From Leucobacter tardus (lineage in GTDB: Bacteria; Actinomycetota; Actinomycetes; Actinomycetales; Microbacteriaceae), in contig NZ_JAGFBF010000001.1 in the NCBI RefSeq assembly GCF_017583045.1, positions 372,001-436,000 on the forward strand: a stretch of DNA of 64,000 nucleotides. Direction: 5' to 3'. The position numbers and the translations under genes are program-made. The stretch's first letter is position 1. Every line of letters begins with the position of its first letter. Positions 7,533-28,590 of the stretch are shown here, piece after piece. The notes below the pieces were generated by a model. It did no database searches. It saw only the letters and a list, made by a program, of their open reading frames with translations, and had not been told where the DNA came from.

Positions 7533-7600
7533 TTGCGTCCTGAGCGCGCGACGCTTACGGTGGATTCCAGAACACAGAAATGTTCTTCCACTTGTTGAAA
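7533..7600 (+). promoter_or_regulatory. Promoter and candidate catabolic-regulon operator of the peroxiredoxin gene
   Basis: A -35 TTGCGT (7533-7538) and -10 TACGGT (7556-7561), 17 bases apart, are followed by AGAA at 7576-7579, CTTC at 7585-7588 and GAAA at 7597-7600. The CTTC-N8-GAAA block is an imperfect palindrome. The same elements occur at nearly the same distances in front of four catabolic units (8972, 17763, 23609 and 28523). A separate perfect palindrome, AGAACA-N6-TGTTCT (7569-7586), overlaps it. Confidence 0.55.
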
Positions 7601-7639
7601 AGGGCGTCACCGCGTAGTGACCCCGGAAAGGTCTCGAAG

Positions 7640-8116
7640 ATGAGTCAGGTCGCTCCAGAACTGCAAGCGGGAGACACTCCCCCGGCGTTCGCACTCGTCG
7701 ACGCCGCGGGACGGTCGGTCTCCTCTGCCGACTTCGTCGGTCGCCGCACCATCGTCTACTTCTACCCTGCGGCGTTCACGCCAGGGTGCACGACCGAGGC
7801 CTGCGACTTCCGGGATCATCTCGGGTCGCTCGCGAGCGGCGGCTATGAGGTGATCGGGATCTCCGGTGATGATCAGCAGACACTCTGCCGGTTCGCCGCC
7901 GAGGACGCCCTCGACTTCACGCTGCTGAGCGACCCGGATCACGCCGTCGCGCAGGCCTGGGGCGCTTGGGGCGAGAAGATCGTCGGCGGTGAGACGCGCG
8001 TCGGTCCGCTGCGTGCGACGTTCGTGCTCGATGACGACGGTCGCGTCCGGTCGGCCGAGTACCGGGTGGATGCCGAGGGACACGTGCGGCGGTTGCGCGA
8101 GCAGCTCGGGGTCTGA
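7640..8116 (+). CDS. bcp: Bcp/AhpC-TSA family peroxiredoxin
   Basis: A 158-residue thiol peroxidase that reduces H2O2 and organic peroxides, normally at the expense of thioredoxin. The motif FTPGCTTEACDFRDH holds the peroxidatic Cys and, five residues on, the resolving Cys typical of atypical 2-Cys Bcp enzymes. I chose the ATG at 7640 because GGAAAGG precedes it and the AhpC/TSA fold begins directly after; a longer frame starts at 7580 inside the operator. The upstream region carries the operator shared with the urate/allantoin genes. Because uricase produces H2O2, a role in protecting cells during urate breakdown is a reasonable inference. Confidence 0.9.
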   Translation: MSQVAPELQAGDTPPAFALVDAAGRSVSSADFVGRRTIVYFYPAAFTPGCTTEACDFRDHLGSLASGGYEVIGISGDDQQTLCRFAAEDALDFTLLSDPDHAVAQAWGAWGEKIVGGETRVGPLRATFVLDDDGRVRSAEYRVDAEGHVRRLREQLGV

Positions 8117-8125
8117 GGCGGTCGA

Positions 8126-25562: not shown

Positions 25563-27362
25563 ATGGCGAAGATGCGTGCCGTCGATGCGGCAGTGCTGAT
25601 TCTGGAGAAGGAGGGTGCCACGCAGGCGTTCGGCCTTCCGGGAGCCGCGATCAACCCGTTCTACTCGGCGATGCGGGCGCACGGGGGCATCTCGCACGTG
25701 CTCGCCAGGCACGTCGAGGGCGCCTCGCACATGGCCGAGGGATTCACGCGCGCTCAGGCGGGCAACATCGGCATCTGCATCGGCACCTCGGGCCCGGCGG
25801 GCACCGACATGATCACCGGTCTGTACTCGGCACTGGCCGACTCGATCCCGATCCTCTGCATCACCGGTCAGGCACCCGTGGCGAAGCTCGACAAGGAGGA
25901 CTTCCAGGCCGTCGACATCGCGTCGATCGCGAAGCCGGTGACGAAGCTCGCGAAGACGGTGCTCGAGGCCGGGCAGGTGCCTGGAGTCTTCCAGCAGGCG
26001 TTCCAGCTCATGCGGTCGGGGCGCCCGGGCCCGGTGCTCATCGACCTGCCGATCGACGTGCAGCAGACCGAGATCGAGTTCGACATCGACCTGTACGAGC
26101 CGCTGCCCATCGCGAAGCCGCAGGCCAGTCGTGCGCAGATCGACAGTGTGCTCGCCATGCTCGATGCGGCGGAGAGGCCCGTGCTCGTGGCGGGAGGCGG
26201 AATCCTCAACGCCGATGCGGCCGACGACTTCGTCGCACTCGCCGAGACCCTCGGCGTTCCCGTCATCCCGACGCTCATGGGGTGGGGCGTGATCCCCGAC
26301 GATCACCGTTTGATGGCGGGCATGGTCGGGCTGCAGACGCAGCATCGCTACGGCAACGAGAACCTGCTCGCCAGCGATCTCGTGATCGGCCTCGGCAACC
26401 GCTGGGCGAACCGGCACACCGGTTCCCTCGACGTGTATACCCGGGGCCGCAAGTTCGTGCACATCGACATCGAGCCGACCCAGATCGGGCGCGTGTTCGC
26501 GCCGGATCTCGGCATCGTCTCCGATGCCGGCGCCGCGATCCGCGGTCTGCTGGAGGCGGCGCGCGAGCGCCGGAGCGCCGGGTCCCTCCCCGACCGCGCC
26601 GCGTGGGTCGATGAGACCCAGCAGCGCAAGGGGTCGCTGCAGCGCAAGACCAACTTCGACAACGTGCCGATCAAGCCGCAGCGCGTGTATCAGGAGATGA
26701 ATCGCGCGTTCGGTCGCGACACCCGGTACGTCACGACGATCGGGCTCTCCCAGATCGCCGGCGCGCAGATGCTGCACGTGTACCGCCCGCGGCACTGGAT
26801 CAACTGCGGCCAGGCCGGGCCGCTCGGCTGGACGCTGCCCGCGGCGCTCGGCGTCGTCGCGGCCGATCCGAGCACCCCGGTCGTCGCGCTCTCGGGCGAC
26901 TACGACTTCCAGTTCATGATCGAGGAGCTCGCCGTCGGCGCGCAGTTCAAGCTGCCGTACATCCACGTCGTGGTGAACAACTCGTACCTCGGGCTGATCC
27001 GACAGGCTCAGCGCAATTTTGAGATGGACTACCACGTGTCGCTCGCGTTCGACAATGTGAACAGTCCGGAGACCGAGGGCTACGGCGTCGACCACATCAA
27101 GGTCGCCGAGGGGCTGGGGTGCAAGGCCATCCGGGTGCGCGAGGTCGAGGATCTGCACGCGGCCTTCGTGCGGGCGAAAGACCTCATGAGCCAGTTCCAG
27201 GTGCCCGTCGTCGTCGAGGTCATTCTCGAGCGCGTCACCAATATCGCGATGAGCGGTGCTGGCATCGACGCGATCAACGAGTTCGAGGATCTCGCGACCG
27301 GCCCGGAGGACGCGCCGACGGCGACGATCCCGCTGCAGCCGGCCCCGGTGCCGGCCGGCTAG
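25563..27362 (+). CDS. gcl: Glyoxylate carboligase
   Basis: A 599-residue ThDP- and FAD-dependent enzyme that joins two glyoxylates to tartronate semialdehyde with loss of CO2. Residue 51 is Val in [14 protein letters not shown], where almost all other ThDP enzymes have a catalytic Glu; this substitution is diagnostic of Gcl. The ThDP motif runs from [12 protein letters not shown] to [18 protein letters not shown] lies upstream of the ATG. The 135-base gap after glxR contains GAA/CTTC/GAAA elements near 25524-25547, but without matching promoter geometry. Confidence 0.96.
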
Positions 27363-27374
27363 CGACGGAGTAAC

Positions 27375-28526
27375 GTGACTGCCATGCGCATCGTCATCGC
27401 TCCGGACAAGTTCAAGGGTTCTCTCACCGCGGCCGAGGTCGGCGACCACATCGCGCTCGGCATGCGCGCCGCGTGCGCGGATCCCGACATCACCGTCGTT
27501 CCCATGGCCGACGGCGGTGAGGGCACGGTCGATGCGGCGCTCGCGAACGGATTCTCCCGGATCGAGGTCGAGGTCTCCGGGCCGCTCGGCGCCCCGGTCA
27601 GGGCCGCCATCGCGGTGCGCGGCGAGGAGGCGGTCGTCGAGATGGCGGCCGCCTCCGGCCTGGCGCTCGTCGACGAAACGGATCGGAATGCGCTCGCGGC
27701 GACCTCGCGCGGGACCGGAGAACTCATCCGCGCGGCGCTCGACGCCGGCGTCACGCGCATCGTGCTGGCCATCGGCGGGAGCGCGTCGACCGACGGCGGC
27801 GCGGGCATGCTGGCGGCGCTCGGTGCGCGTCTGCTCGACGCCGAGGGGCGCGATGTCGCCGACGGCGGCGGTCCCCTCGCGGAGGTCGTCGACGTCGACC
27901 TGTCCGGTCTCGACGCGCGCATTGCCGAGACGAGCTTCATGCTGGCCAGCGACGTCGATCACGCGTTGCTCGGCCCGAACGGCGCTGCTTGCGTGTTCGG
28001 CCCGCAGAAGGGGGCTTCGGCGACGGACGTGCTCGAGCTGGAGCGCGGCCTCACGGTGTTCGCTCGAGCCTTGCAGGGCGGCTCGGGCGGTGAAGACTTC
28101 GCCTCTCACCCCGGAGCGGGTGCAGCGGGCGGCGTGGGATTCGCCGCCCTGGCGGTGCTCGGGGCCGAACGTCTGCCCGGCGTCGACGTCGTCGTCGACT
28201 TCACGCGATTGCGCGCCCATCTCGCCGGAGCCGACCTCGCGATCACCGGAGAGGGGTCGTTCGACGACCAGAGCCTCGGCGGCAAGACGCCGATGGGCGT
28301 GCTCGCCGCGGCGGCCTCCCTCGCCGTGCCCACGGTCGTGGTCTGCGGGCGCTCCCTGCTCGATGAAGCCGCGTGGCGGGAGGCCGGATTCGTCGGGTGC
28401 TTCGCCACGGCCGATCGTGCGCCGGACGCCGAGACGAGCATGCGCGAGACCGGCCCGCTGCTGCAGGCGATCGGCGCCGAACTGGTGCGTCGCTGGCGGG
28501 CCGGCGAGTTTGCTGGGAGTGCTTGA
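27375..28526 (+). CDS. glxK: Glycerate kinase
   Basis: A 383-residue GarK/GlxK-type kinase that phosphorylates D-glycerate and so feeds the carbon into lower glycolysis. It starts MRIVIAPDKFKGSLTA and shows VPMADGGEGT, GIGGSASTDGG-like IGGSASTDGGAGMLAALG, and ITGEGSFDDQS. Either the GTG at 27375 (GGAG 4 bases upstream) or the ATG at 27384 may be the start; the second matches the family N terminus. It ends the hyi-glxR-gcl unit, completing glyoxylate to phosphoglycerate. Confidence 0.94.
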   Translation: MTAMRIVIAPDKFKGSLTAAEVGDHIALGMRAACADPDITVVPMADGGEGTVDAALANGFSRIEVEVSGPLGAPVRAAIAVRGEEAVVEMAAASGLALVDETDRNALAATSRGTGELIRAALDAGVTRIVLAIGGSASTDGGAGMLAALGARLLDAEGRDVADGGGPLAEVVDVDLSGLDARIAETSFMLASDVDHALLGPNGAACVFGPQKGASATDVLELERGLTVFARALQGGSGGEDFASHPGAGAAGGVGFAALAVLGAERLPGVDVVVDFTRLRAHLAGADLAITGEGSFDDQSLGGKTPMGVLAAAASLAVPTVVVCGRSLLDEAAWREAGFVGCFATADRAPDAETSMRETGPLLQAIGAELVRRWRAGEFAGSA

Positions 28527-28590
28527 CACCTCACCGCACCTGTGGTGAACTCATTCTCATCTCGCGGAATGCAGTTTTCGCATCGTGAAA
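28523..28590 (+). promoter_or_regulatory. Promoter and candidate operator of the allantoin unit
   Basis: TTGACA (28523-28528) and TGAACT (28546-28551) are 17 bases apart; the -35 box overlaps the end of glxK. GGAA (28566-28569), TTTT (28575-28578) and GAAA (28587-28590) follow, with the extended palindrome GTTTTCGCA/TCGTGAAAC. An outer CTCGC...GCGAG pair (28561-28565 and 28594-28598) encloses the site. Confidence 0.65.

Follow-up and report, generated by a model that had tools for sequence, protein, structure and literature searches.

A 64-kb stretch of the 2.95-Mb genome of Leucobacter tardus (assembly GCF_017583045.1, contig NZ_JAGFBF010000001.1, positions 372,001 to 436,000), referred to here as the window and numbered from its own first base, carries five forward-strand units of genes for the use of urate, allantoin and glyoxylate. 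Unit 1 is a single peroxiredoxin gene, unit 2 (9056-16860, assigned by profile matches) starts with the urate genes, unit 3 (17890-23035) starts with malic enzyme, unit 4 (23716-28526) encodes the glycerate route, and unit 5 (28637-33585) encodes allantoin uptake and opening. The units hold 19 genes (1+6+4+4+4), the number given in an initial annotation made from the sequence, and this agrees with our own gene list. On the reverse strand, between units 2 and 3, lies the gene for a 254-residue regulator of the IclR family (16873-17637; IclR_C 2.2e-38, HTH_IclR 1e-17), which we call AllR. Each unit is preceded by the same 36-bp operator.

The sequences at the five places align without gaps and show an operator built from a pair of 15-bp dyads separated by 6 bp, in one register at all five sites. 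Each -10 hexamer ends where the initial annotation had placed it, the operator begins 2-4 bp further on, and a -35-like hexamer, assigned by eye, lies 17-18 bp upstream of the -10. On the forward strand, the peroxiredoxin promoter has TTGCGT (7533-7538), 17 bp and TACGGT (7556-7561), followed by operator 1 (7565-7600, TTCCAGAACACAGAA-atgttc-TTCCACTTGTTGAAA). The urate unit has TTGAAA (8972-8977), 17 bp and TTCACT (8995-9000) before operator 2 (9005-9040, ACCCACAGGCTGGAA-ttttgt-TTCCGGAATGTGAAA), the left arm of which is weak. Between allR and the divergent malic enzyme unit, TTGCGC (17763-17768), 17 bp and TAGAAT (17786-17791) precede operator 3 (17794-17829, TTTCATAAAATAGAA-gaaaat-ATCCATAAAGCGGAA). 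The glycerate-route unit has TTGACA (23609-23614), 18 bp and TACTCT (23633-23638) before operator 4 (23641-23676, TTTCACACAACAGAA-cttagc-TTCCACATTGTGAAA), and the allantoin unit has TTGACA (28523-28528), 17 bp and TGAACT (28546-28551) before operator 5 (28555-28590, TCTCATCTCGCGGAA-tgcagt-TTTCGCATCGTGAAA), the weakest of the five.

In the spacing of the dyads, and in sequence chiefly at the right dyad, the operator resembles a published class. Suvorova and Gelfand (2021, PMC8222616) describe, for the IclR group 1 WTT-11-AAW class, the consensus WTTYCRYW3RYGRAAW and tandem sites with 18-22 nt between centres; the window dyads are 21 nt apart, centre to centre, at 5/5 sites. The right dyads match this consensus, with no mismatch to TTYC-N7-GRAA at four sites and one at site 3 (ATCC), and 0-2 when all 15 letters of the consensus are counted (core TTYCRYW3RYGRAA). 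The left dyads match it only loosely, with one mismatch to TTYC-N7-GRAA at four sites and two at site 2, and 1-5 to the full consensus. The initial annotation had proposed one shared design made of a TTC/GAA pair with an extra GAA upstream. The single design and single regulon stand, as the conserved sites described below indicate, and the architecture is replaced by two tandem dyads. The sites of relatives show that the corresponding three-box site (GAA, TTYC, GAAA) lies inside a longer operator of four boxes, arranged as two dyads. The variation in spacing read earlier (20-21 and 35-37 bases) came from a one-base slip at site 3, where the right half-site is GGAA (17826-17829) and not GAAA (17827-17830). 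Shifting this site by one base lifts its leave-one-out score from 0.1 to 21.8 (with a slightly different pseudocount) and brings all five sites into register.

The repeated operator at the five promoters is confirmed as real by comparison with chance. When a matrix was built from the other four sites, the left-out site scored 21.8-39.3 bits; once the five sites with flanks of 36 bp were set aside, nothing in the window scored above 14.8 bits. A pattern made post hoc from four sites matched the genome exactly at five places, the four source sites plus one more; reversed, it matched nowhere, and with one mismatch allowed there were 23 forward matches against 6 reversed. Greedy alignment of the 160-bp upstream regions is a weaker control, in which the five-unit set reached 41.6 bits, above all of 25 random gene sets by a small margin (mean 38.1, maximum 40.5). 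The strongest test used a profile, R1, built from 32 operators of relatives with no window site included. R1 returned exactly five matches at E<=10 in the 2.95-Mb genome, and these were the five operators (E 0.01, 0.024, 1.1e-4, 6.5e-6 and 0.77 for operators 1 to 5, the last falling to 0.017 when only the window is searched).

Conservation among relatives was followed in the best 80 of 122 loci with an orthologue of the IclR protein (L042-L121). Of these, 23 (L042-L064) come from Leucobacter, Cryobacterium, Arthrobacter, Microbacterium, Kocuria and others, including one Gordonia, and the remaining 57 (L065-L121) are nearly all from Streptomyces. Operators were counted with the window matrix, on either strand, within about 220 bp upstream of a gene start; starts were excluded where the match set in beyond residue 25, where identity was below 45%, or where the start was too near a locus end. 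In the first group, the operator stands before the leaders of units (hyi 17/17, mae 16/16, uraD 8/8, prx 5/6 of the starts examined) and is absent before inner genes (glxK 0/11, gcl 0/15, glxR 0/17, UGlyAH 0/18, aceE 0/6, NCS2 0/8, uox 0/8, HIUH 0/8, allB 0/5, DUF6986 0/2, racemase 0/2). It precedes malate synthase in 3/18 cases, L048, L057 and L059, where malate synthase leads the unit with no mae between it and the regulator. Matches before the IclR gene itself (21/23) and a short-chain dehydrogenase/reductase (SDR) gene (3/5) come as no surprise: most of these genes are divergent from the leader of a unit, and an operator so close to a palindrome is matched on either strand. Background blocks elsewhere in these loci gave 10/1849, and true sites without a label may be among these matches. 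For the second group, the operator precedes allB in 49/51 and aceB in 51/52 cases, with a background of 2/5076. In the congener G014, all five sites, including those before the peroxiredoxin and allantoin units, are present with changed letters, and gene order is the same without a match to the DctA-like gene of unit 2.

The joint layout of promoter and operator is itself conserved. Across 54 operators (49 of relatives from L042-L064 and the five in the window), 22 have upstream a TTGAC that starts between -36 and -26, where shuffled sequence gives 0.44, and 36 have a TANNNT between -10 and -4, where shuffled sequence gives 5.6; both ranges were chosen after inspection of the data. That the motif is a generic A/T-rich promoter or start-site feature of the genus, read by no regulator, would fit the constant position of the sites relative to the -10 hexamers, but is scarcely credible for a conserved tandem palindrome that occurs in other genera, is missing before inner genes of the same clusters and has no other R1 match in the genome at E<=10.

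The initial annotation had named the IclR protein as regulator, and the evidence for this now extends beyond the conserved sites to co-occurrence and to the protein itself. Among 150 genomes of the family, 14 have an AllR orthologue (E<=1e-50) and 12 have an R1 site (E<=0.1); a site is present in 11/14 genomes with the orthologue and in 1/136 without it (Fisher p 3e-13). Of 24 listed sites, 22 lie within 15 kb of AllR, the exceptions being one of two in G009 and the only one in G136. In addition, the recognition-helix core PTIHRL is present in 15/15 sampled orthologues, from Leucobacter to Streptomyces, and in 0/7 paralogues. These paralogues are the seven further IclR-type proteins encoded in the genome (E<=1e-4), and one of them, for example of the NdgR/LtbR type, could in principle own the operator while AllR acts elsewhere, given that the published NdgR/LtbR motif KTYCRSMWYSYGRRM resembles half of the operator (PMC8222616 Table 1). 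We consider this very unlikely, as it would leave both the co-occurrence of sites with AllR, across genomes and within 15 kb, and the helix core common to AllR orthologues and absent from the seven paralogues without explanation.

Our analysis therefore favours, at a probability of roughly 90%, a reading in which the five units form an AllR regulon, with the predicted AllR repressor binding the 36-bp operators and barring polymerase until an acid effector releases it. We infer binding, tetramer formation, repression and effector response as follows. The dyads are separated by two helical turns, and AllR would probably occupy both of them as a tetramer, a dimer of dimers on one face of the DNA. 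Tandem IclR sites have been read as fitting tetramer binding (PMC8222616). Since the expected start site falls within the operator, AllR on its site would shut RNA polymerase out of the promoter. Purine breakdown would then raise a small acid effector, allantoate and/or glyoxylate, that would be bound in the C-terminal pocket of AllR, and effector-bound AllR would let go, so that the five units turn on together. The induced path would run from urate to allantoin, through uptake and opening of allantoin and from ureidoglycine to glyoxylate, and into the two outlets for glyoxylate. Through the operator that lies between it and mae, allR itself may be tuned as well.

The position of the operator bears on both the mode and the sign of regulation. 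The initial annotation had placed the site after the start of transcription and proposed a roadblock to elongation; with an operator that begins only 2-4 bp beyond the -10 and takes in the expected start site, competition with polymerase, at binding or opening, is likelier. From this position an activator could not easily help polymerase, and the promoter-like hexamers upstream of the operator are conserved. The AllR of S. coelicolor is, moreover, reportedly a negative regulator, which also counts against activation. It is thus very unlikely that AllR activates these promoters in the way that BhcR acts on its own cluster, even though some of the -10 and -35 hexamers are poor and BhcR is the best NCBIfam model for AllR (197.3 bits, far under the cut-off of 350) and is reported to be an activator (PMC11323563). 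PMC12772271 likewise describes the S. coelicolor homologue as repressing.

For AllR as a repressor released by an acid, the effector domain is informative. The glyoxylate-contact residues listed for E. coli IclR (PMC11323563) include G160, D212, S239 and S241 (IclR numbering), which are kept in the window AllR, as is M146 of the hydrophobic patch. An acid effector is likely, and it could be a larger one such as allantoate. In S. coelicolor, AllR reportedly answers to both allantoate and glyoxylate (Navone et al. 2015, AEM 81:6649). Its response to allantoate is repeated second-hand in PMC11438217.

Several observations weigh against this reading. The effector pocket is only partly conserved: in the hydrophobic patch of IclR, L143 is replaced by T, L154 by A and L220 by V in the window AllR, and A161 is V, and because these residues differ the effector may not be glyoxylate. 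The operators are uneven, with a low-scoring operator 5 and an operator 2 that has no good left arm, and the left dyads of relatives are loose too (0, 1, 2 and 3 mismatches in 2, 29, 14 and 4 of 49), whereas their right dyads have 0 or 1 mismatch in 31 and 18. Three genomes (G060, G080, G113) have AllR, at 49-53% identity, and no site under stricter filters, which also lost one of the five sites of the host; conversely, G136 has a weak site without AllR, and one of the two sites of G009 is far from AllR. Finally, the relatives' sites came from a search with the window matrix, and the 32 used for R1 were chosen by hand out of 49. That R1 finds the window sites again is for this reason partly circular; the lack of other matches is less so.

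Among known systems, the closest is the AllR of S. coelicolor and its kind. The window protein is 60-63% identical to the Streptomyces copies, which in the loci listed sit between allB and aceB, an order that we take to be the AllR arrangement of S. coelicolor. The same 36-bp operator precedes Streptomyces allB and aceB and is thus common to the allantoin and glyoxylate genes of Streptomyces and of the L. tardus genome, so that in both regulator type and operator the system fits an actinobacterial AllR regulon. Unlike in Streptomyces, where the comparison covers the 10-kb flanks of the regulator and S. coelicolor itself lies outside the 80 loci, the genes for urate oxidation, peroxiredoxin, malic enzyme, a second AceE and DUF6986 are also under the operator here. 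The work of Navone et al. (2015) on S. coelicolor AllR is cited in PMC12772271, PMC6759348 and PMC11438217.

The E. coli regulators are more distant. AllR of E. coli, which represses the gcl operon (PMC10163214), and IclR share a homologous effector domain with the window AllR, including the four acid-contact residues named above, and differ from it at pocket positions 143, 154, 161 and 220. The NCBIfam AllR model, of the E. coli type, gives 109.6 bits, under its cut-off of 406. The published E. coli motifs, KTTGGAAWAWTWTTCCAAC and TGGAAATNATTTCCA (PMC8222616 Table 1), have the half-sites in the opposite order, GGAA...TTCC. In the window the dyad order is TTYC-N7-GRAA and not the E. coli-type GGAA-N5-TTCC, and the inner RAA-N6-WTYC is one base longer.

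The initial annotation had taken the operator as undescribed. Its consensus and tandem arrangement are in fact published, with left dyads looser in the window than in the published class, and Streptomyces promoters carry it; the available portion of that source (PMC8222616) does not name the present regulon. Among the open-licence papers searched, we found none joining at least four of allantoin, malic enzyme, malate synthase, glyoxylate carboligase and IclR, and none covering allantoin, uric acid, IclR, Actinobacteria and regulon together. The operator class and regulator type are known; as far as those papers tell, the exact five-promoter regulon and its unusual content in this lineage are new. 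One 36-bp operator thereby yields a nearly complete, testable map of a purine-use regulon in Micrococcales. The gene set under AllR is unusually complete, includes an enzyme family of unassigned function, and joins items not usually listed together, namely urate oxidase accompanied by a peroxide scavenger, malate synthase accompanied by malic enzyme and a second pyruvate dehydrogenase E1, and DUF6986.

The genes themselves, all on the forward strand, outline the pathway. Unit 1 encodes a thiol peroxidase or PrxQ-like peroxiredoxin (7640-8116; AhpC-TSA 3.8e-35; PRK09437 138.8 bits, cut-off 140). Unit 2 holds uraD (9056-9550) and the genes for hydroxyisourate hydrolase (9547-9873), urate oxidase (9875-10795), an NCS2 permease (10923-12515), a DctA-like carrier (12600-14138) and the AceE-type pyruvate dehydrogenase E1 (14107-16860). 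Divergent from uraD, with operator 2 between them, is an SDR dehydrogenase gene (8126-8893), a type of gene that also occurs near the urate genes in L044, L047, L050 and L060; it may share operator 2. The DctA-like carrier has no match in the same region of G014 or in the 34 loci listed, and is possibly a recent insertion. Unit 3 encodes malic enzyme (17890-19311), malate synthase A (19308-20912), a DUF6986 protein (20909-22213) and (S)-ureidoglycine aminohydrolase (22220-23035). Unit 4 comprises hyi (23716-24501; 246 bits, under the cut-off of 353), glxR (24540-25427), gcl (25563-27362) and glxK (27375-28526). Unit 5 comprises genes for an NCS1 allantoin-type permease (28637-30169), a member of the Asp/Glu/hydantoin racemase family (30198-30926; PF01177 1e-48), allantoinase (31005-32405) and an aminotransferase-like protein (32440-33585), which has no Pfam match over the cut-off and only weak NCBIfam matches (PhnW 9.6e-18, far under cut-off). 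No allantoate amidohydrolase above the AllC cut-off is encoded in the genome, which has two weaker matches elsewhere. The protein at 22220-23035 passes the model NF040771, 'bifunctional allantoicase/(S)-ureidoglycine aminohydrolase' (426 bits, cut-off 350), and scores 428 bits with the plain aminohydrolase model. For an Arthrobacter genome, too, the authors saw no clear candidate gene for the allantoate step (PMC3534580).

The combination in units 2 and 3 suggests a second outlet for glyoxylate beside the glycerate route. In the dicarboxylic acid cycle of Kornberg and Sadler (1960), malate synthase, malic enzyme and pyruvate dehydrogenase are said to oxidise glyoxylate and regenerate acetyl-CoA. 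All three enzymes, the last represented by E1, are encoded here in units with AllR-type operators, although the cluster holds E1 only, the genes for dehydrogenase E2 and E3 not being in it. A second aceE lies elsewhere in the genome (C5:419596-422298), its product 70% identical to that of the window gene and likewise of the homodimeric E1 type; the window malic enzyme has no second copy in the genome at E<=1e-20. As judged from these genes, malate synthase, malic enzyme and the second AceE could burn glyoxylate while regenerating acetyl-CoA. The 1960 work is cited in PMC8307300, and a 2025 Pseudomonas paper makes the case that glyoxylate from allantoin does not suit malate synthase, no acetyl-CoA being made alongside (PMC12694930). 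The L. tardus cluster encodes a possible way round this lack. We would go further only tentatively, with slightly more doubt than belief: the regulon may be a self-contained burner of purine carbon, in which a cycle that remakes the acetyl-CoA it uses oxidises glyoxylate from allantoin to CO2, in parallel with the glycerate route, the co-regulated peroxiredoxin removes the H2O2 of urate oxidase, and DUF6986 is a new enzyme of the malate synthase superfamily acting on glyoxylate or a ureide.

The DUF6986 protein, which adjoins a genuine malate synthase, matches Pfam DUF6986 only, has no NCBIfam match at 1e-10, and in a sequence search of the PDB gave nothing of note (two matches, E 0.1 and 0.11); no paper on DUF6986 was found among the open-licence papers searched. 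It belongs to the cluster in 18/23 of the loci L042-L064. A structure model made from 14 aligned relatives (pLDDT 76.8, pTM 0.77) had malate synthases A and G as its first 49 matches in the PDB (best E 9.9e-6, though with a TM of only 0.47 and an rmsd near 20 A), and profile comparison with the neighbouring malate synthase gave E 1.1e-4 and a probability of 57% over 155 columns. The model and profiles point to DUF6986 as probably a distant member of the malate synthase superfamily. In L044 and L047, malate synthase is missing between malic enzyme and DUF6986, both of which are kept. A simple swap of DUF6986 for the cluster malate synthase was considered for these two loci and is not supported, as both genomes keep one malate synthase elsewhere (55-56% identical). 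The genomes of L042, L050 and L052 have two malate synthases.

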